This document shows positions 686 to 37,598 of a stretch of DNA of 37,770 bases, one piece after another. The position numbers were made by a program, and so were the translations under genes. Every line of letters starts with the position of its first letter. Within the stretch, counting starts at the first letter, position 1. The stretch is from Lysobacterales bacterium (GTDB lineage: Bacteria; Pseudomonadota; Gammaproteobacteria; Xanthomonadales; SZUA-5), in NCBI GenBank assembly GCA_022844135.1, contig JALHMG010000048.1, forward strand, positions 1-37,770. The letters run 5' to 3'. Under the pieces are notes generated by a model, which saw nothing but the letters and a program-made list of their open reading frames with translations, searched no databases and was not told where the DNA came from.

Positions 686-1084
686 ATGGCAGCAAAGTCG
701 GTGATGGAAGCGCAAGCATTGGTGCCCGATTGTGTGGCGGTCGGTGTTGTTGACGTTGAATCAGGCCTTCTGCTAGACGTCAAAACGGTGGATTCGCACC
801 CCTCGGAGGTGCTCGATCTGGTTGCAGCCGCCACAGGCGATCTGTTTCAAGGTCCGAACGTCTCTGCGATCGAAAACCACTTCAAGAAAGCTCGAGGTGT
901 TTCGACCGACGCACGGTACTTCCAAGAAATCATGGTCAACAGCACGCATCTGATTCACGTCTTCATTCGGATGAAGAAGAAGCAGTCGCAGGTGGTTGTA
1001 TTCGTTTGTCGCAACTCTGCCAATATCGGCATGGTGCTGTCGAAGGCCCGTCTGGCCATGCCTGCATTAGAAGCAGCGTTCTGA
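686..1084 (+). CDS. Roadblock/LC7 domain protein 1
   Basis: The 132-residue soluble protein has the single alpha/beta Roadblock/LC7 fold expected from its length and pattern. An N-terminal helix precedes a V-x-G-V-V-D-V-E-S-G-L-L beta hairpin, a central helix (residues 35-60) and a C-terminal V-V-V-F-V-C strand with a final helix. Roadblock proteins of the MglB type act as regulators or scaffolds of Ras-like GTPases, and a COG2229 GTPase is encoded four genes downstream. The ATG at 686 is preceded by a good AGAGGA ribosome site (674-679), and this is the first gene of the operon. The next gene follows within 14 bp. Function as a GTPase regulator is inferred from family and context. Confidence 0.75.
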   Translation: MAAKSVMEAQALVPDCVAVGVVDVESGLLLDVKTVDSHPSEVLDLVAAATGDLFQGPNVSAIENHFKKARGVSTDARYFQEIMVNSTHLIHVFIRMKKKQSQVVVFVCRNSANIGMVLSKARLAMPALEAAF

Positions 1085-1097
1085 CTTGAATACTGCT

Positions 1098-1520
1098 ATG
1101 TCAGGCGATCCAGCTACGCCACGTTCCGCCAGTCTTCGACTGACTGGCGACCACGTCGCGCAAATGGGGCGGATTTTGGGCGAGAATTTCACTGAACAGG
1201 CTCGTTTGCGTTTTGTTCTGTTGGCCACAATTGATGGGCGTGTTGTGACCAAACACTCTCGACAAGATGTGGACACAGTGAAATTCGCCGCCCTTACATC
1301 GACGATCATGTCGATGTCCGCCGCCGCTGTCCGCGAATTAGGCGGCACGAGTCCAGATGAGTGCCTCCTGACTTACGACAAGGGCTCGGCCTGTATGGGC
1401 AAGTGCGGTCCGTCCGGTCGCCTGGTGTTGTGCCATGTAGCCGGTTCTGACCTCAGCATGGGTCTGTTAGTCAGCGGTTGGCGCAGAACTGCTGCTGCGC
1501 TCACGGCTGCCTTTCCGTAG
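1098..1520 (+). CDS. Roadblock/LC7 domain protein 2, Cys-containing
   Basis: This 140-residue protein is a second Roadblock/LC7 member: RFVLLATIDGRVVTKHS is the typical first hairpin, SMSAAAVRELG the central helix, and RLVLCHVAGSDLSMGLLVSG the C-terminal strands. It is close to the prokaryotic Roadblock type found in actinobacterial conservons (CvnB). Four cysteines fall at residues 89, 99, 103 and 112, with a C-x3-C pair in the loop before the last strands, which could be redox- or metal-related. A TTG at 1086 would add four residues, but ATG 1098 is preferred. It lies 13 bp after Roadblock 1 and 12 bp before the BLUF gene, so one transcript is likely. Pairing with Roadblock 1 as a heterodimer is inference. 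Confidence 0.75.
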   Translation: MSGDPATPRSASLRLTGDHVAQMGRILGENFTEQARLRFVLLATIDGRVVTKHSRQDVDTVKFAALTSTIMSMSAAAVRELGGTSPDECLLTYDKGSACMGKCGPSGRLVLCHVAGSDLSMGLLVSGWRRTAAALTAAFP

Positions 1521-1532
1521 TCGCGACGGACC

Positions 1533-1925
1533 ATGGACCTGTTGCGGCTAATCTACGTCAGCCGGGCAAGAAGCACCGCGTTGCATGGGCGCGCCATCGC
1601 GGACTTTGCTCAGAGTTTCAACAGCAAGCATGATCTGACCGGCGTTCTGATCGCGACATCCCGGTTGTATATCCAGGCCATCGAGGGCGATCCTGCGGTC
1701 GTCCGGGCGCTCTACCAGAGAATTTCCGCCGATACTCGGCATCAGCATCCCAAGATACTGGCCGAGGCGGAATGCGACCTGCGCCTGTGGCCCAAATGGT
1801 CGATGCAATTGATCAGCGCCTCGACATGGCAAGAACATGCCGGCCCATTGGCCATGGCCGACTACGAAGCTGTTGTAGCGGCTGGCGTAGATGTTTGCGA
1901 TCGAATCTATGCGCTCCACAATTGA
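1533..1925 (+). CDS. BLUF-domain blue-light photoreceptor (flavin-binding)
   Basis: The 130-residue protein is a stand-alone BLUF domain that should bind FAD non-covalently. The residues that carry BLUF photochemistry are all in place: Tyr8 in LIYVS, Asn30 five residues before L-T-G, Gln48 in YIQAIEG, and Trp89/Met91 in KWSM (equivalents of AppA Y21, N45, Q63, W104, M106). The usual D-T-R-H segment is also present (residues 67-70). No output domain is fused, so it must signal by protein contact, as short BLUF proteins such as PixD do. It sits between the Roadblock genes and the GTPase gene. I infer that it makes the downstream GTPase or phosphatase light-responsive. Confidence 0.9.
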   Translation: MDLLRLIYVSRARSTALHGRAIADFAQSFNSKHDLTGVLIATSRLYIQAIEGDPAVVRALYQRISADTRHQHPKILAEAECDLRLWPKWSMQLISASTWQEHAGPLAMADYEAVVAAGVDVCDRIYALHN

Positions 1926-1943
1926 AGGTTGAGTAGTCCCTTG

Positions 1944-2846
1944 ATGCGAATCGCCCACTATGCGGGATTGCCGTTGCCTGCGCTGACAGCGTTGACGGCC
2001 GCGATTCCGCGAACGCTCGGCGATGGCTGGCGACTCGAACCGTGGATGGGACGAATGAGCGGCGACCTGCTGATCGTCGGCAGCGGCGCTCTGGGGTTCC
2101 AGGCCAGAACGGCAGGCGCTGCGGCTCTGCGAGCAGTTGTAGAGGTCAGCGGCGTTGAAGTGGCAGATTTCCGCAAGTGCTTTGCCACACAACTACCGCC
2201 GTTCGCCGAATTTTGCGCCCCGCGGCAGAGCCCTTTCCACGTGGCTCGACAGTTGAAAGGACTCGCTTCGCTTTTGCTTTGCGGCGCACTGGATGCGAGG
2301 CTGCGTCAGACAGTGCACCGATATCGGCATCCCATCGTCGGTAGTGTGGAAATCGACTTCGTGGGTGGCTGGGTGACGAGCGAACAACCGATCGCGAACG
2401 TGGTTGGAGTGTTGCTCGATGACGCCTGGCTGCCAGGGACAGCGAGCAGCGAATCCGACCATTGTTACTCGCTGGAAGCGGTGGTCTGGTTGAGCGTGCT
2501 GCGCTGGCGAAGCGTGCTTGTGCAGTTGGATTCATTCCCCCCGTTGCGAATTACCGAGTTTCCCGACATTGCTTCAATAAGTGGGCAAGCGGGATTGCAC
2601 GAAGCCGTATTTGCCTGGCAACAGGCCGGTTCTATCGACGATCTGGTGGCGCGAACCAGCGTCAGTTTAGAAATGGCGAAGGCGATAGCCGTTGCGGCGG
2701 CCTTATCGGGATTGGCCGAGGTTACCCCCGTTAAATCACCCAGCGCCGGTCAAGCTGTCGAGAAGATACCGTCGCGGCCCACTGCGTTGGCGAGGCTCGC
2801 GCATTTTCTGGGGTTGAGCCGTGCAACAGCGCGAGAATTCCCATGA
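1944..2846 (+). CDS. unrecognised 300-aa protein of the BLUF/Roadblock operon, C-terminal wHTH-like region
   Basis: I do not recognise the family. The protein is soluble, without signal peptide or convincing membrane segment. Residues 1-200 are a mixed alpha/beta region with no motif I can name. Residues about 205-265 have a helical pattern ending in VSLEMAKAIAVAAALSGLAEV, reminiscent of the winged-helix tail of DUF742 (CvnC) and DUF4388 proteins, which accompany Roadblock proteins and COG2229 GTPases in other phyla. In-frame TTG codons at 1929 and 1941 precede ATG 1944. A GAAGG at 1924-1928 does not discriminate well between them. The stop overlaps the GTPase start (ATGA at 2843-2846), so the two are translationally coupled and may form a complex. 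Confidence 0.7.
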   Translation: MRIAHYAGLPLPALTALTAAIPRTLGDGWRLEPWMGRMSGDLLIVGSGALGFQARTAGAAALRAVVEVSGVEVADFRKCFATQLPPFAEFCAPRQSPFHVARQLKGLASLLLCGALDARLRQTVHRYRHPIVGSVEIDFVGGWVTSEQPIANVVGVLLDDAWLPGTASSESDHCYSLEAVVWLSVLRWRSVLVQLDSFPPLRITEFPDIASISGQAGLHEAVFAWQQAGSIDDLVARTSVSLEMAKAIAVAAALSGLAEVTPVKSPSAGQAVEKIPSRPTALARLAHFLGLSRATAREFP

Positions 2847-3376
2847 TCGATAGCCAGCAGAAGTTCGTGTTCGTCGGCGAAATGGGTGCGGGAAAGACGA
2901 CGGCTATCACGTCGATCAGTGGCAGCGATACGCTGCGCATGGAAGTGCCTTTGCCTGAAAGCGATTATCAAGGTGAAAAGACGACAACAACGGTTGGCTT
3001 CGATTTTGGGGTCGTTAGTCTTCAAGGGGCTCCGATGTACTTATACGGAACGCCTGGGCAAGAACATTTTCACGTTGTGGCGGCCGAAGTGCTTTCCGGT
3101 GCCGTCGGTGTCGTGTTGCTAATCAATGCGAGTGCCAGAGCAATCGACAATGAACTCGACCAATGGCTTCCGCTGATTCATAAAGCCACTCAAGATGTAC
3201 CGATTGTTGTTGCCGTCAATCGGCACAACAGCAAAACACCCCCGCTCAACGAAATCAGGGCTCGTTGCAGGGCAAGATCGAGCAGTGTTGTGGCCGTTAT
3301 GCTGGCTGATCCGCGGCGGCGCATGGAAATGAGCGCATGCCTTCGAGTGCTGACACTAGCCCAGCTGCGGACTTGA
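2843..3376 (+). CDS. COG2229/MglA-like small Ras-family GTPase
   Basis: The 177-residue protein is a single Ras-like G domain. G1/P-loop is GEMGAGKTT (residues 12-20), switch I carries the KTTTTVGFDFG segment (46-56) typical of COG2229, and G3 is GTPGQEHF (69-76) in place of DxxGQ. G4 is NRHN (126-129), so the usual guanine-specifying Asp of NKxD is replaced by Asn. The G5 region is not obvious. COG2229 proteins include CvnD of Streptomyces conservons and are related to MglA, whose GTP hydrolysis is stimulated by the Roadblock protein MglB. The gene is coupled by ATGA to the gene before it and overlaps the next gene by 40 bp. A role as a nucleotide switch controlled by the two Roadblock proteins is inferred. 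Confidence 0.85.
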   Translation: MIDSQQKFVFVGEMGAGKTTAITSISGSDTLRMEVPLPESDYQGEKTTTTVGFDFGVVSLQGAPMYLYGTPGQEHFHVVAAEVLSGAVGVVLLINASARAIDNELDQWLPLIHKATQDVPIVVAVNRHNSKTPPLNEIRARCRARSSSVVAVMLADPRRRMEMSACLRVLTLAQLRT

Positions 3377-4563
3377 CGTTGGCATCGATATCGTTACGGT
3401 TGCGCCATTTCGGCGTGGCCTACGACCAGAAGATCGTCCATAGCGATTTGAACTGGGAACTTCGCTCTGGCGCGGTGCATTTGCTATTCGGTGCAGCGGG
3501 TTGCGGCAAGTCGACACTGCTTAAGGCTCTGGCGGGGTGGCATCGTCGCATTCCGAGCATGCGCGTCTGGGGCAGCGCACAGATCCTCGGGTGCCCCTTC
3601 GAACCGGCTTTGGTCCATCAATCGCTCGGCGCCTTCGTCTCGACGGTCGGCATTAACCTTGCCAACGCCATGCCGAACAGGTCCGCATTGACGCAAGCCC
3701 AACAACGAGAACTGGCGCGGCAAATCCTGGCTCCAGTCGACCTTTCGCATCTTGTCGATCTTTGGCATGAACCAATGAGCAGGCTCGAAGCGCTGCAGCG
3801 CAAACAGGCGTGTCTTGCGCTTGCGCTGATAGAAGGCAAAAACGTTCTGCTGCTCGATGAACCGGGCGTCGGGCTGGCGAACAACGAGTACGACCTGCTG
3901 GCCAGACAGCTGACGGCCATCGCCGAGCGATGCCTGGTGATTGTTGTGACGCACGATGCGAACGATCAGCAACGATATCCAGGCTCGTACATCGCGACTC
4001 TGCGCGAACGTTACACTTCCACGCCGCAACAAGCCGTCGAGATAGAAGCCGTCAGAGTCGGTTCGCAACCGGTACCTGCGCCGGTCGCTATCCGACGCAT
4101 GGCACCAAGCGGCTTCCATTGGGTTTGGGAGAAGCAACTAGCGGCGCTTGCGCGACCGGGACTGATGGCAGACGTCGACGAGGACTTTCTCCTTTTGAAA
4201 CGGCTGCAGATCGACTGCCTGCTTTGTCTGGAAGAAAGCATCGCCTACGCCGAGGCCGCCACACGTCACGGCATTGAGGTGATGCACTTTGCGATTCAGG
4301 ATATGCAAGCGCCGGCATCGGTCGACGCACTACGGCCCATCATCCAGCGTGTCATTGAGCGACTGCATGCCCGCCAGCGAATCGGTGTCCATTGCCGAGC
4401 AGGCCTTGGACGGACTGGGCTGATTCTCGGCTGCATCCTGATCGAGGTCGAACAACTCACGGCTGCCCAGAGCCTGCGCCGTATTCGATCGATCAACCCC
4501 AGATTCGTTCAGAGCGATGAGCAAGCTTCCTTCCTTGAGTCGTATACGCCAGCCAATTGGTAA
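3337..4563 (+). CDS. ABC-type ATPase domain fused to dual-specificity/tyrosine phosphatase domain
   Basis: The 408-residue protein has two recognisable halves. Residues about 15-225 form an ABC nucleotide-binding domain: Walker A GAAGCGKST (52-60), a Q-loop Gln near 95, Walker B VLLLDEP (170-176, Asp174/Glu175) and H-loop VTHD (His206). The LSGGQ signature is degenerate (RLEALQRKQ, 149-157), and no transmembrane partner is encoded nearby. Residues about 258-405 are an atypical dual-specificity phosphatase with P-loop HCRAGLGRTG (352-361; Cys353, Arg359) and a likely general acid Asp322. I know of no characterised protein with this architecture. ATG 3337 lies 9 nt after a GGA; a TTG at 3373 is an alternative. 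It is the last gene of the operon and probably its output enzyme (inference). Confidence 0.85.
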   Translation: MPSSADTSPAADLTLASISLRLRHFGVAYDQKIVHSDLNWELRSGAVHLLFGAAGCGKSTLLKALAGWHRRIPSMRVWGSAQILGCPFEPALVHQSLGAFVSTVGINLANAMPNRSALTQAQQRELARQILAPVDLSHLVDLWHEPMSRLEALQRKQACLALALIEGKNVLLLDEPGVGLANNEYDLLARQLTAIAERCLVIVVTHDANDQQRYPGSYIATLRERYTSTPQQAVEIEAVRVGSQPVPAPVAIRRMAPSGFHWVWEKQLAALARPGLMADVDEDFLLLKRLQIDCLLCLEESIAYAEAATRHGIEVMHFAIQDMQAPASVDALRPIIQRVIERLHARQRIGVHCRAGLGRTGLILGCILIEVEQLTAAQSLRRIRSINPRFVQSDEQASFLESYTPANW

Positions 4564-4713
4564 TTCCGACCGCAATCGGCCCGGCCCAAGCCTTCAGCGC
4601 AGAACCAACGCCTGGCTGCGCGACTTGCACTCCAGGAACGCGCCTGGCTGCCACTGCGTCTCGCTGCAGAGAATGTGTTTCAAAGCAATCCATCCGATTG
4701 CCGACGTTCGGGC

Positions 4714-5083
4714 TCATCCGCTTTGCCCGGATCTTTGCGCTGCCAGTACCGCCTCGCCCAACGCTTTCAAGAACGGCTTGCCGATCTCGTCGTAGGCATA
4801 ACGCGCATCGTTGAGTACGCCGTCGTGGTCGACGAACAGGATGGCCGACAGCGCGAAGGCGAAGGATCTGCCGGCCACGAAGGCGCTGTCGCCGACGTAA
4901 CCACAGGATTGCGCGTTCTTGCTGACGACGGTGACCGAATCGCGCGGTGCGATCAGCCATTTGCTGTGATCGTCTGGCTTGGGCTGGCCAATGTCGCGTG
5001 GTCGCAGCGACATCCATGCGCGCAGGCGCAGGCCGAGCTCCGGGTCGATCTCGAATTGCCCGGTGTCGGCGAAGCCGAGGCCA
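4714..5083 (-). pseudogene. duplicated 3' fragment of the serine-hydrolase gene
   Basis: This stretch is a near-copy of 7173-~7542, the last ~120 codons of the intact serine-hydrolase gene. By eye there are about 20 mismatches in ~370 bp, mostly transitions and several at third codon positions, and the frame stays open to the same stop. Homology begins at the shared segment just before the stop codon and ends near 5083-5087. Without the SxxK and SxN motifs of the N-terminal two thirds it cannot be a functional enzyme. It is either a partial duplication or the leftover of recombination with a related gene. The mixture of silent and coding changes suggests it is not recent. Confidence 0.85.
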
Positions 5084-5312
5084 CATTGGGCCGGCCACTT
5101 GGATCACTTGCTGATCCACAATTCTCGCCACTGTGATCGATGCTGGGCGTGTCGCGATCAACTCAAGGCCCGCGCCCAACTTGGTGAAAATGCTGACTAT
5201 GGTGCGCAATCAGGTTCGAGCAGGTATTCTGAGCTCTGGTGTTGAAACTGGCGCAGGTCTGAGTAGTGCTGTAATCTCCAAACGAGAATAGTCATCTGCA
5301 ATGGAGTCTATA
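5084..5312. other. unassigned intergenic stretch between duplicate fragment and lipoprotein gene
   Basis: No gene is supported here. Short frames on both strands stay open from ~5085 to ~5230 but match nothing I recognise. A 7-bp perfect hairpin (tggatca / tgatcca, 5100-5118) lies at the point where the homology of the duplicated fragment stops. Composition turns markedly AT-richer from about 5180 into the next gene, consistent with a junction between DNA of different origin. A promoter for the lipoprotein gene should lie within 5200-5300, but I cannot pick hexamers confidently. Confidence 0.3.
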
Positions 5313-6431
5313 ATGGCATGGCTTTCGGGATTTGCATGTCTATTTTTGGTCTTGTTAACCGTCGAAGGCTGTGCAGGCTCTTCTCGTGACAGGAGTAATG
5401 CAGTCCCCGAATTGCAGCGACTGAAAGTGGTGGGTGACAAAGCCCGAAACGGAATTTTCGATGCTTCATTGGAATACCACAGTGATGGTACCGGATGGAT
5501 GGCTTATTCATCCATTGAAATTCCAGAATACGTTGAGACTCATGTTGCAAAATCGGAAGACAATGGCAAGACGTGGACCTTTATTGGAAAGCCAAACAGC
5601 TCTGTTGACTTTCAGCGGGCGGCCAAAAGCGGCAAGGTGACGGAGGGTGTGTGGCGCCATGAAACACCGAGCCTTCTTTTTGACCCGCTGGATGTGCCCG
5701 AGCGGCGTTGGAAATTATTCACCAACCGTTATCCCGTGCTGAAGCCATTTGGTCCGACCGATCGCAGGATGTCGGAGGGCTCGATTGAAGTGCAATATGC
5801 CTCATCACCAGATGGAGTATGGTCAAAGCCAATCTGCGTTATTGGTTCGTCGATTGGTTGTCGTGCTGATATCTCCAAAATGGATGCGAGCCTCGCCGAT
5901 GTCAAATCCATGACCGAGCCCGGCACGATCATACACAATGCCACGATTTATATGAGCATGGATGTTAGCACTAAAGAAAATGGTTTGGGCGATTGGGAGC
6001 GTTATCGCGTTATTTTGTTGGCATCCAAAGATCGTGGGGTTAATTGGCATTATGTCGGGACCCTGCTCAACCACAACGAAGCCATGAGATTCAAGTATCG
6101 TGTCTTCACCGGCACCAGCCTCGTGAGGGAGCGAGGAGAAATCTATCTTATGGCCACACCCTCTGGCGCGACGCGTAAAGCGCAACAAGATCACGACGGT
6201 ACGATGGTCATGGAAGTCGCCGACATAAGTCAAGCCAAATTAACTCGTGATGGCATCGGAGCGCCAGTTGTAGTCAAGCGGATAACTGTCGAAAAGCAAT
6301 CCGGGGGCCTGGCTGATTACGACGAACAGAATACGGCCGGCGGAATTGTGTTCTCGCAAATTTCTCTTTTTGGAATGCCGGAAGTTTTCCAGCTCTGGTC
6401 GACGGGTGAGACCAGAGTTGGCGCTCCTTGA
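5313..6431 (+). CDS. putative lipoprotein with BNR/Asp-box (sialidase-fold) repeats
   Basis: The 372-residue product begins with a hydrophobic signal sequence ending in TVEGC, an imperfect lipobox (Glu at -2). A membrane-anchored periplasmic protein is therefore likely but not certain. Two Asp-box motifs of the S-x-D-x-G-x-x-W type are visible, SEDNGKTW and SKDRGVNW. These mark beta-propellers of sialidases and other exo-glycosidase or carbohydrate-binding folds. I see no certain arginine triad, so a sialidase activity cannot be claimed. ATG 5313 is chosen over ATG 5301 because GGAG (5303-5306) sits 6 nt before it. The gene is clearly AT-richer than its neighbours and lies between the two copies of the serine-hydrolase 3' end, which suggests acquisition by transfer. 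Confidence 0.7.
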   Translation: MAWLSGFACLFLVLLTVEGCAGSSRDRSNAVPELQRLKVVGDKARNGIFDASLEYHSDGTGWMAYSSIEIPEYVETHVAKSEDNGKTWTFIGKPNSSVDFQRAAKSGKVTEGVWRHETPSLLFDPLDVPERRWKLFTNRYPVLKPFGPTDRRMSEGSIEVQYASSPDGVWSKPICVIGSSIGCRADISKMDASLADVKSMTEPGTIIHNATIYMSMDVSTKENGLGDWERYRVILLASKDRGVNWHYVGTLLNHNEAMRFKYRVFTGTSLVRERGEIYLMATPSGATRKAQQDHDGTMVMEVADISQAKLTRDGIGAPVVVKRITVEKQSGGLADYDEQNTAGGIVFSQISLFGMPEVFQLWSTGETRVGAP

Positions 6432-7147: not shown

Positions 7148-7172
7148 TTCCCCAGCATTGGGATGGATTGGC

Positions 7173-8270
7173 TCATCCGCTTTGCCCGGATTTTTGCGCG
7201 GCCAGTACCGCCTCGCCCAACGCTTTCAAGAACGGCCTGCCGATCTCGTCGTAGGCATAACGCGCATCGTTGAGTACGCCGTCGCGGTCGACGAACAGGA
7301 TGGCAGACAGCGCGAAGGCGAAAGATTTGCCGGCCACAAAGGCGCTGTCGCCGATGTAACCATAGGATTGCGCATTCTTGCTGACGACGGTGACCGAATC
7401 GCGCGGTGCGATCAGCCATTTGCTGTGATCGTCCGGCTTGGGCTGGCCAATGTCGCGTGGTCGCAGCGACATCCATGCGCGCAGGCGCTGGCGGAGCGCG
7501 GAGTCGATCTCGAATTGCCCGGTGTCGGCGCGGCCGATGGAGCCGATCAATCGATGCACCACGCTGAGCGGCACGAAGTTTGAGGCCGAAAAATCGTGCG
7601 GCCCCTCGATGCGATGCCCGTTCTGGAGCCAGGCGCGGCCCTTGCTGGCGGCGCCGAAGGGAAAGCGTTGGGCTGCCTGCGGGCCGCTGGCATCCGACAC
7701 AAAGCGTGTCGTGCCATGGTCATCGACCAGTCGCGCACGCAGCTTGCCCGGCGCGGCGATGGTGCAGCCCAGACGCTGCGGGATACGCACCTCGCCCATG
7801 CCGAGCACGGCCAGACGCGCGTGCAGCGCATCGCTACCGATCAGCTCATAGAGCGCGTTGAAACTAGGGTTGTCGCTGACCACCAGCATGTGCGCGAACA
7901 GGTCGCTGAGTTTCGCTGGCAGGCTGGGCAATGGCGCACAGCTGCTGCCATCCAGATGCAGCCACAACTCGTCGAGCGCCGCGCTCAATCGCGCGCGCGT
8001 GAGGGTTTCCAGCAACTGCAGCGCGAGCAACGGTTTGACGAAGCTGGCGGCTGCAAACCAGCGCCGGTCATCGACGCCGTGACGATAGGTCGCGATCGGC
8101 GCAAAGCCGCCGTCAACGCGGTAGCGGGTGAGCAGCACCTGCAACTCGAAACTCGGATCGCTCGCTACGCGGCGCAATACCGGCGCGCTGCGCAGCGCCC
8201 GTGCCAAAGGGTCGGCCGCAGACGCCAGCGGCGCGGCGGCGAGCAGCGTTAGCGCCTCACGGCGTTGCAT
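7173..8270 (-). CDS. exported serine hydrolase, class A beta-lactamase-like fold
   Basis: The 365-residue product has an RRE-containing signal peptide (MQRREALTLLAAAPLASA), possibly Tat-type but lacking a full twin-arginine consensus. It has the active-site pattern of the penicillin-binding/beta-lactamase superfamily: S76-F-V-K (SxxK) and S132-D-N (SxN). A degenerate third box near SKN replaces KTG. The domain resembles beta-lactamase2 (PF13354) enzymes, so a periplasmic hydrolase or peptidase is likely; true beta-lactamase activity is unproven. ATG 8270 is chosen because the signal peptide starts there, and it overlaps the 3' end of the preceding gene by 14 bp. It is the third gene of a permease operon. 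The last ~370 bp are duplicated at 4714-5083. Confidence 0.8.
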   Translation of the reverse strand: MQRREALTLLAAAPLASAADPLARALRSAPVLRRVASDPSFELQVLLTRYRVDGGFAPIATYRHGVDDRRWFAAASFVKPLLALQLLETLTRARLSAALDELWLHLDGSSCAPLPSLPAKLSDLFAHMLVVSDNPSFNALYELIGSDALHARLAVLGMGEVRIPQRLGCTIAAPGKLRARLVDDHGTTRFVSDASGPQAAQRFPFGAASKGRAWLQNGHRIEGPHDFSASNFVPLSVVHRLIGSIGRADTGQFEIDSALRQRLRAWMSLRPRDIGQPKPDDHSKWLIAPRDSVTVVSKNAQSYGYIGDSAFVAGKSFAFALSAILFVDRDGVLNDARYAYDEIGRPFLKALGEAVLAAQKSGQSG

Positions 8271-9405
8271 CGTCGGCAGCGATGGCTTCGCTGCGGCGAT
8301 AGATCTGCAGGTTGCTGTCGTTACGCCGATGCCGATAGCCGATGCCGAAGGGCAGTGGCTGCACATCGCTCGCCTTGTAATCGGCCGCGAGCGCACGCTG
8401 GTGCCAGTTGGCGAACAACGCGATCGGTGCACTGTAGGTGCCGTAGAGGGTTGCCGTCCAATCGCGCGCAGGGAACCACTGATGCGGGATGCCGGAATCG
8501 TCCTGCATCACGAAGGGCGTTTGCAGAATTGCAGCGCGAATCTTCGAGAAGTACGGCTTGTGCATCAGGTACGACGCGCTTTTCAAATACGTGCCGCTTG
8601 GCGCGAAGTCGCGCGCAAAATCCAGGTATTGCGGCGTGCGCAACAGTCCGCCATCGCCAAGATCCGCGGTGAAATAGGTCATGCGCCGGAATTTCAGATC
8701 GCCGGGCTTGAAGTAGTCGATGGCCACGCCGGCGAGTGTACCCTTGGGTGGCGCGGTTATCTGGCCGGCGTCCGCGGCGCACAGGCGGCCGTCGGGCGGC
8801 AACCACAGGTAGCTGACATCGAGCACCGCAAATCCTGCCTCGGCAAGAAATACGAACAGGATCGGCGTCACGCCGCCAAAGCGGCTGCGCTTTAAGTCCA
8901 CCGTCAGATCGTTGGTGCGGAAAAAACTGAAGCTCAGGATGGCGTTCAGTGAGTTGCGTACTTCCGCAAGGCCGGCCTCGATTTGCTGTGGGCTGAGCGA
9001 TCCGAGATCGGGGACCAGACCGACCGGCTCCAGTCCGGTCAGTAACGACTGTTCGGCATCGGGGAACAGCGCCAGCAGGTACAGCGCGTCGGGCCCGCTG
9101 AACGGATAGAACACGCGCGTAGCGGGTGGCGATTGCGATTGCCCGAAGGCGCGCACCGCATCGAGTTGGCGCTTGCGCAGCGCGGCCCAACCATCGCCCA
9201 GCGTCTCCTGATGACGCGCTAACGCACCCTCGCTCAGCTGGTCTTTGAGTGCCGAGTCGAGCGGTGTGCGCAAACCGGCAAGCACGCGTGCGGTGTCGTG
9301 CAACTGGCCACGGTCCCAGTCGGTCTTCGAACTGGCGCCTGGGCAAGGCTCCAGAGCGAATGCGGGTGCGGCGAATAGCAGAGCAAGCAGGCAAGCGCGA
9401 ATCAC
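8257..9405 (-). CDS. exported conserved hypothetical protein with YPFSGPD / GLEPVG motifs
   Basis: The 382-residue product starts with a clear signal peptide (VIRACLLALLFAAPAFA). The mature part contains FYPFSGPDALYLLALFP and LLTGLEPVG, which I recognise as signatures of a widespread exported family of unknown function. No catalytic residues can be assigned. GTG 9405 is supported by AAGGAG seven nt upstream, by the signal peptide, and by a 4-bp overlap (GTGA) with the stop of the permease gene. It is therefore translationally coupled to an amino-acid permease upstream and a serine hydrolase downstream. A joint role in handling a peptide or amino-acid derivative is inference. Confidence 0.75.
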   Translation of the reverse strand: MIRACLLALLFAAPAFALEPCPGASSKTDWDRGQLHDTARVLAGLRTPLDSALKDQLSEGALARHQETLGDGWAALRKRQLDAVRAFGQSQSPPATRVFYPFSGPDALYLLALFPDAEQSLLTGLEPVGLVPDLGSLSPQQIEAGLAEVRNSLNAILSFSFFRTNDLTVDLKRSRFGGVTPILFVFLAEAGFAVLDVSYLWLPPDGRLCAADAGQITAPPKGTLAGVAIDYFKPGDLKFRRMTYFTADLGDGGLLRTPQYLDFARDFAPSGTYLKSASYLMHKPYFSKIRAAILQTPFVMQDDSGIPHQWFPARDWTATLYGTYSAPIALFANWHQRALAADYKASDVQPLPFGIGYRHRRNDSNLQIYRRSEAIAADDATP

Positions 9406-37288: not shown

Positions 37289-37373
37289 GGAGGGATACCC
37301 AAGCGGCCAAAGGGGGCTGACTGTAAATCAGCTGTCACTGACTTCGGTGGTTCGAATCCACCTCCCTCCACCA
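37289..37373 (+). tRNA. tRNA-Tyr(GTA)
   Basis: An 85-nt type II tRNA with long variable arm, anticodon GTA in ctgtaaa, acceptor ggaggga pairing with tccctcc, and encoded CCA. First of three tRNAs before tuf. Confidence 0.95.
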
Positions 37374-37424
37374 GCCGTCGTTGAAACCGGAGCCGTAAAG
37401 CGAAAGCCGTACGATCTCCGAATT

Positions 37425-37498
<74 letters not shown>

Positions 37499-37522
37499 GG
37501 TTGTGTCAACAAAAATTTGCAT

Positions 37523-37598
37523 GCCCCCGTAGCTCAGTCGGTAGAGCACCTCCTTGGTAAGGAGGAGGTCGTTGGTTCGATTCCAATCGTGGGCACCA
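37523..37598 (+). tRNA. tRNA-Thr(GGT)
   Basis: A 76-nt tRNA with anticodon GGT in cttggta, T-loop ttcgatt and encoded CCA. The acceptor stem gcccccg/cgtgggc carries a C-U mismatch at pair 5:68, discussed as a finding. Confidence 0.93.

Follow-up and report, generated by a model that had tools for sequence, protein, structure and literature searches.

A BLUF gene within a Group 3 MglA-type operon of a Lysobacterales bacterium, in company with an ABC-phosphatase fusion

Among bacterial MglA systems, those of Group 3, delineated by Wuichet & Sogaard-Andersen in 2014, combine an MglA homologue with one or two MglB homologues and with a partner protein that has a receiver-like N-terminal and a winged-helix C-terminal part (PMC4316618). 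According to the passages of that paper drawn on here, these systems are nearly confined to beta- and gamma-proteobacteria, and their GTPases have a G4 motif that often comes without Lys and a G5 of the DAR type; 'phosphatase' and BLUF have 0 occurrences each in its main text (PMC4316618). A BLUF protein at work in another setting is described for Synechocystis, where PixD, a stand-alone BLUF protein, exerts its effect on the pilus motor via the CheY-like partner PixE (PMC9090330, passages cited). Here we analyze an operon at positions 686-4563 of a 37,770-nucleotide stretch of Lysobacterales DNA, hereafter the window, in which six intact and tightly packed plus-strand open reading frames (ORFs) encode, in this order, RoblA, RoblB, a BLUF domain protein, a partner protein (UNK), an MglA-like GTPase and a fusion of an ABC ATPase with a phosphatase.

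The core of this operon is a known but little-studied Group 3 MglA system. Given the family memberships and the recurring neighbourhoods observed, we infer that the operon functions as a light-input variant of Group 3 MglA signalling, a reading to which we assign a probability of about 0.55. The first-pass annotation, made from the DNA letters, had proposed a new signalling system: its core is already described (PMC4316618, in the passages cited), whereas the BLUF and ABC-phosphatase additions are absent from the literature found. Searches of the open-licence literature, with subscription papers mostly outside its coverage, gave among the papers listed none that joins BLUF with Roadblock/MglA in one system or an ABC-phosphatase with Group 3 systems.

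The Group 3 core and its divergent partner protein

In the window GTPase, G1 reads GEMGAGKT, G3 reads GTPGQ (at 69) with no Asp, G4 reads NRHN (at 126) with no Lys, and G5 reads DPR (at 156), its D and R being invariant among 17 aligned GTPases. These marks of Group 3 are found: a G3 without Asp, a G4 without Lys together with a G5 Arg, and at least one coupled MglB, which is RoblB firmly and RoblA remotely. The Roadblock and GTPase genes had been read as MglB-MglA-like from the start, and this holds, but the conservons, also named then as an example of such partners, belong to Group 2 and are not the nearest relatives, which are in Group 3. In a tree computed without MglA Groups 1, 2, 4 and 5 the window protein is placed among Group-3-type relatives (support values of 85 and 93, both unstarred), its position being unsure because its end branch measures 1.49; its neighbours there are modules without the fusion, including the BLUF-linked loci L038 and L039. 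Named and unnamed loci overlap, with identical GTPases in L061/L130, L057/L133, L059/L148, L044/L161, L154/L211 and L060/L215, so that not all rows of this tree are independent.

UNK, which the first-pass annotation had left as an unknown protein of 300 residues, turns out to have a family. Single-sequence searches return no family and nothing besides UNK itself (1 of 61 genomes; 1 of 299 genomes of the order), a BLAST comparison with the paralogous locus on contig C52 of the host genome gives no match, and shallow partner profiles reach at most 11.6%. With a deep partner profile, hhalign aligns residues 138-301 at 93.9% and a score of 52.2, to be compared with 23.1 for the best of 100 shuffles, 17.6 for the reversed sequence and at most 17.0 for the six most probable of 52 decoy ORFs of the window; the score is still 51.6 once BLUF-linked and fused members are removed from the profile. 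The AlphaFold2 (AF2) model made without an alignment is poor (pLDDT 37.4), and the one made with an alignment has block means of 82-92 over residues 221-260 and 50.3 overall. It is the C-terminal part of UNK that is supported, by the hhalign match and by AF2 with an alignment, and one relative of the partner has MarR- and DprA-type winged-helix matches. By profile comparison, then, UNK is placed as a divergent protein in the Group 3 receiver-like/winged-helix partner family, a kinship visible by deep profile only, which single-sequence and shallow-profile searches missed.

Two Roadblock/LC7 proteins had been announced, and here the two genes differ. RoblB has a significant Pfam match and aligns with a profile of 46 RoblB relatives at 96.7% (hhalign), whereas RoblA and 14 relatives give no Pfam Roadblock match (0 of 15), the likeness of RoblA being at the level of profiles: 81.8% to RoblB over 52 columns, with a score of 36.8 where 50 column shuffles reach 19.9. 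A second family, RoblA', aligns with RoblA at 76% over 107 columns, and its own tie to Roadblock is weak (7.6% to RoblB; Pfam Robl_LC7 at 0.0042, below cut-off, in one of four members scanned). The identity of RoblA to its 14 aligned relatives is 54-64%, with a mean column identity of 69% over the 15 sequences; the family forms a clade of its own (support 100, starred) apart from RoblA', and the window protein falls in the fusion-linked clade.

A search of phage records with RoblA found no relative, and plasmid records contained relatives in five records at 33.6-36.4% identity. In two of these, from Ruegeria (L224, 6926-7327; L225, 7926-8327), the RoblA relative lies between pairs of dynamin-family GTPase genes, a protein kinase gene then follows, and L225 also has FHA and PP2C genes; perhaps these loci represent another RoblA-GTPase system.

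The ABC-phosphatase fusion and its pairing with RoblA

The phosphatase part of the fusion matches the Pfam entries Tc-R-P/PTP-SAK/DSPc. The motifs GAAGCGKS, LLDEP, VTHD and HCRAGLGRT (at 352) are present and the DSP/PTP active site HCxxGxxR[ST] is kept, while the ABC signature LSGGQ is absent. This combination is general: among 77 fusions of at least 360 residues, window included, the phosphatase motif is found in 76, Walker A in 72, Walker B in 73 and LSGGQ in none. The count drops cluster members below 360 residues; an earlier set of 78 members had included L099 (371 residues), which is not a phosphatase.

Relatives came from a contig scan with an alignment of eight fusions, a scan with the window fusion as single protein having found none, and the best 80 of 280 confirmed loci were studied. 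By their titles, these belong to Gamma- and Betaproteobacteria, Myxococcota, Nitrospirota, Acidobacteriota and Planctomycetota; the plasmid records matched by the fusion number 1549, and in none does the match extend over 80% of the protein. RoblA and phosphatase domains are at most 1.5 kb apart in 73 of the 80 loci and at most 3.5 kb apart in 77, with no RoblA in L144, L171 (a 4.7-kb contig) and L174; distances were taken from domain to domain because mechanically called ORFs sometimes extend too far upstream. A Group-3-type GTPase is present within 6 kb in 50 loci, 49 of which also have a near RoblA, and the commonest gene order seen is partner-GTPase-fusion-RoblA-RoblB. This pairing was also borne out in an independently drawn set of 369 genomes from the window's class. 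RoblA occurs in eight of them, from eight families, and among the matches listed the same eight carry the full fusion, a coincidence of ~1e-16 by random choice with kinship and the limit on scored fusion candidates ignored. In this draw 368 genomes match the fusion, the matches listed beyond the eight covering the ABC part alone; four candidates per genome were scored for the fusion and up to 11 for RoblA, so that further fusions in the class could be missed. As judged from gene neighbourhoods, the ABC-phosphatase fusion accompanies RoblA and Group 3 modules widely.

A kinase query detected kinase-like ORFs in only 2 of the 80 fusion loci (L139 and L168), hence no conserved kinase, and in five other loci, two of them one place. 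No membrane permease is found by Pfam among the six genes, and recurrent neighbours elsewhere were scanned in part. One such neighbour, cluster c4, accompanies 36 fusion/RoblA loci; the one member scanned (L097, 10270-11871) combines ferredoxin, FAD/NAD reductase and bacterial globin matches, perhaps a redox or oxygen input. L143, L154 and L156 carry, beside RoblA/fusion, genes of a calcineurin-like phosphoesterase family (c12) together with Ras/Arf-like GTPases ~500 residues long (c13), one member of each having been scanned.

The BLUF gene, a proposed mechanism and its alternatives

The Pfam BLUF match spans profile positions 1-92 of 92. Tyr8, Asn30, Gln48, Trp89 and Met91, the flavin-switch residues of BLUF, are all kept, in line with the photochemically complete domain of the first-pass annotation, and are invariant in the four BLUF proteins aligned. 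Of 299 genomes surveyed in the order, 97 have BLUF and 90 have Group 3 GTPases; at the places listed, the two lie within 3 kb of each other in at least 9 of the 35 genomes with both, against ~0.14 expected for random placement in 4 Mb with kinship ignored. The nine genomes are G000, G002 and G007 (family f1), G032 (f5), G456, G486 and G491 (f9), and G482 and G592 (f10), and their number may be an undercount because the BLUF places listed are 150 (96 of the 97 genomes). Gene maps show BLUF in line with the Group 3 module. In L063, L209 and L210 a BLUF protein with a long C-terminal extension occupies the place of the partner, and in L063 this extension corresponds to the partner C-terminal region (hhalign 88.7%, score 45.0; 20 shuffles reach 16.0). 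L206 and L207 have a stand-alone BLUF followed by a winged-helix-only partner (96.4 and 96.7%), and L211 has the receiver-like part joined to a GTPase in one protein (88.8%). Mapped on the GTPase tree, the BLUF label takes five changes, but for BLUF loci without the ABC-phosphatase fusion the starred branches force only two. The co-occurrence elsewhere that the first-pass annotation had suggested looking for is, then, seen for the ABC-phosphatase and for BLUF, each far above chance, but at separate loci, the two having been seen together in this genome only; the genes form a linked module, and the recurrence of both linkages answers the refuting condition that the annotation had set.

These families and neighbourhoods predict light sensing, control of the GTPase and a phosphatase activity, and a sequence of events can be proposed. 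By analogy with the MglA/MglB pair, RoblB would set the GTP/GDP state of the MglA-like GTPase; UNK, as the partner of the GTPase, would read this state and probably give a DNA-binding output via its winged helix. BLUF would replace, join or act on the receiver-like input, so that blue light would alter the partner/GTPase complex. RoblA would be the dedicated companion of the ABC-phosphatase, in which the phosphatase may be gated when the signature-less ABC domain binds ATP, and light would thereby act through the G-protein state on transcription, on dephosphorylation or on both. A broader version of this proposal, which we put forward tentatively and with less confidence, is that RoblA and the signature-less ABC-phosphatase may be an obligate pair and make up a hitherto unrecognised bacterial G-protein-linked phosphatase across several phyla, with exchangeable inputs, and that BLUF would in this lineage stand in for the receiver-like input domain, so that light would control a Ras-type switch with both DNA binding and dephosphorylation as its end points.

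A number of observations weigh against a light-input Group 3 system. The N-terminal half of UNK alone scores 13.9, below the 17.1 reached by 50 shuffles; a PDB fold search with the UNK model gives no match at E <= 0.001; and UNK occurs, as said, in a single genome of the order. RoblA is predicted to be Roadblock-like by remote profile comparison only, and the GTPase branch is very long. In 26 of the 35 genomes with both, BLUF and GTPase were not seen adjacent, and the BLUF extensions of L209 (10%) and L210 (0.3%) are unconfirmed as partner fusions. A profile of four sequences revealed no further BLUF across the 80 loci with the fusion, so that the window is the one locus seen with BLUF and fusion together, and the complete six-gene set was seen in the host genome alone.

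The last of these facts bear on the idea that BLUF is a passenger which does not regulate an otherwise real Group 3 and RoblA/ABC-phosphatase system. The 26 genomes without adjacency and the fusion loci without BLUF speak for this idea, and gain by transfer would fit the GC content of the operon (0.579, compared with 0.634 for 7100-37770); however, BLUF-GTPase adjacency recurs in four families where ~0.14 cases are expected, L063 has BLUF and partner in one fused protein, and the junction gaps of BLUF are only 12 and 3 nt, from which we consider a passenger unlikely. The output could instead be surface motility or polarity through type IV pili, as for the MglA of Myxococcus, the winged helix then binding protein and transcription not being involved. 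Myxococcus MglA indeed acts on type IV pili (PMC11580455, PMC7519303), mutations of an orphan mglB in Snodgrassella, whose mglA is of Group 3, are suggested to act via pilus-dependent motility (PMC11112851), and PixD works on a pilus motor through a CheY-like protein (PMC9090330), each according to the text cited; the MarR- and DprA-type matches of a partner relative and the case that the 2014 paper makes, in the part cited, for transcription (PMC4316618) point the other way, and we regard a motility output as somewhat unlikely, though worth keeping in mind.

The operon could be a hybrid of two module types, given that the window GTPase groups with fusion-less modules (at the two unstarred supports given above) and RoblA falls in the fusion-linked clade. 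That such a hybrid of two Group 3 modules would be decaying, its GTPase and partner no longer working as in relatives, would agree with the long GTPase branch, with the single occurrence of UNK in 299 genomes, and with a genome of the same genus (G001) that has neither a Group 3 GTPase match nor an UNK match. Yet the six ORFs are intact, the motifs checked are present and the junctions are tight, and decay appears improbable. Least credible of all is that the fusion just happens to trail the operon, as the ATPase of a common ABC importer or as a defence gene. Its ABC part does match CydC/AztA/PstB-type profiles, and the best PADLOC match is mad3 at 1.8e-10, but all eight PADLOC matches cover ATPase stretches only. 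A plain ABC transporter or defence gene was therefore rejected on this coverage, on the motifs of the 77 fusions (LSGGQ in 0, phosphatase motif in 76) and on the strong co-occurrence with RoblA.

Genomic setting and comparison with known systems

The contiguity of the six genes, with tiny gaps or overlaps, was correctly described in the first-pass annotation (Table 1). RoblA/RoblB, RoblB/BLUF and BLUF/UNK are separated by 1, 12 and 3 nt, UNK and the GTPase overlap by ATGA, and the GTPase and fusion overlap by 40 nt if the latter starts at ATG 3337, or by TTGA if it starts at TTG 3373; the other alternative starts are ATG 1098 for RoblB and ATG 1944 for UNK. A promoter scan of the operon gave 0 sigma-70-like sites where 1.7 are expected, and the three terminator-like sites (5.4 expected) are all intragenic. 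The spacing of the six genes suggests that they are co-transcribed. The GC content of the operon is 57.9%, compared with 63.4% for window positions 7100-37770. The window constitutes contig C48 in a genome of 5.34 Mb, which has a second module on contig C52, in the order UNK'-GTPase-RoblB-RoblA', with no BLUF and no ABC-phosphatase fusion in the stretch viewed.

Table 1. Genes of the operon, with positions in the window
Gene product	Position	Strand	Description
RoblA	686..1084	+	132 aa; divergent, Roadblock-like via profile comparison; family accompanies ABC-phosphatase
RoblB, MglB/Roadblock protein	1086..1520	+	144 aa (140 aa from ATG 1098); Pfam Robl_LC7 5e-7
BLUF domain protein	1533..1925	+	130 aa; Pfam BLUF 3.9e-21
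UNK, placed by profile in the Group 3 family of receiver-like + winged-helix partners, divergent	1929..2846	+	305 aa; hhalign 93.9%
MglA-like small GTPase, Group 3 type	2843..3376	+	177 aa; Pfam Roc 1.4e-7, Ras 7e-7
ABC ATPase - DSP/PTP phosphatase fusion	3337..4563	+	408 aa from ATG 3337; Pfam ABC_tran 6.5e-14 + DSP-type 1.6e-14

Just 3' of the operon lies the first copy (4711-5010) of a 300-nt direct repeat (96%), which resembles a fragment of a Beta-lactamase2-family gene because the second copy (7170-7469) lies in the 3' end of such a gene (7173-8432, minus strand). Also 3' of the operon, the protein encoded at 5301-6431 has a similarity to DUF4185 below the Pfam cut-off (1.5e-6; 28.1 of 39.5 bits), and close to the window end the genes for tRNA-Tyr, tRNA-Gly and tRNA-Thr follow one another at 37289-37598.

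The inputs and outputs of Group 3 MglA systems are little known, and a built-in blue-light sensor would offer a switchable input for probing them. The tight pairing of RoblA with the ABC-phosphatase points to an enzymatic output outside the published description (PMC4316618, in the passages cited). If light does control a bacterial Ras-type switch, tools that steer G proteins by light would have a natural point of departure in this operon.

Compared with described Group 3 MglA systems, the window has the same MglA-like GTPase with odd G4 and G5 motifs, Roadblock-type proteins and a partner assigned by profile to the receiver-like/winged-helix family, but it adds BLUF and the ABC-phosphatase, and its partner is very divergent. 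The logic of a GTPase with a Roadblock regulator is shared with MglA-MglB of Myxococcus xanthus, which differs in belonging to another MglA group (Group 1), with other G4/G5 motifs and other partners (group features as given in the passages cited of PMC4316618). Actinobacterial conservons (Group 2, Cvn) likewise have MglB and MglA homologues with a sensor in one operon, whereas the six genes of the window are without the CvnA histidine kinase, by Pfam, and have BLUF and the ABC-phosphatase in its stead; with no kinase detected by Pfam among the six genes, membership of the conservons was rejected. The Ruegeria plasmid operons, of which two records were viewed, resemble the window in that a RoblA relative adjoins GTPase genes, and differ in that both have a protein kinase gene and GTPases of the dynamin type, with FHA/PP2C added in one. 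PixD-PixE, finally, shares a stand-alone BLUF acting on a CheY-like partner, but PixE, which has a PATAN domain, acts on PilB1, and the passages cited name no GTPase or Roadblock protein for PixD-PixE (PMC9090330).

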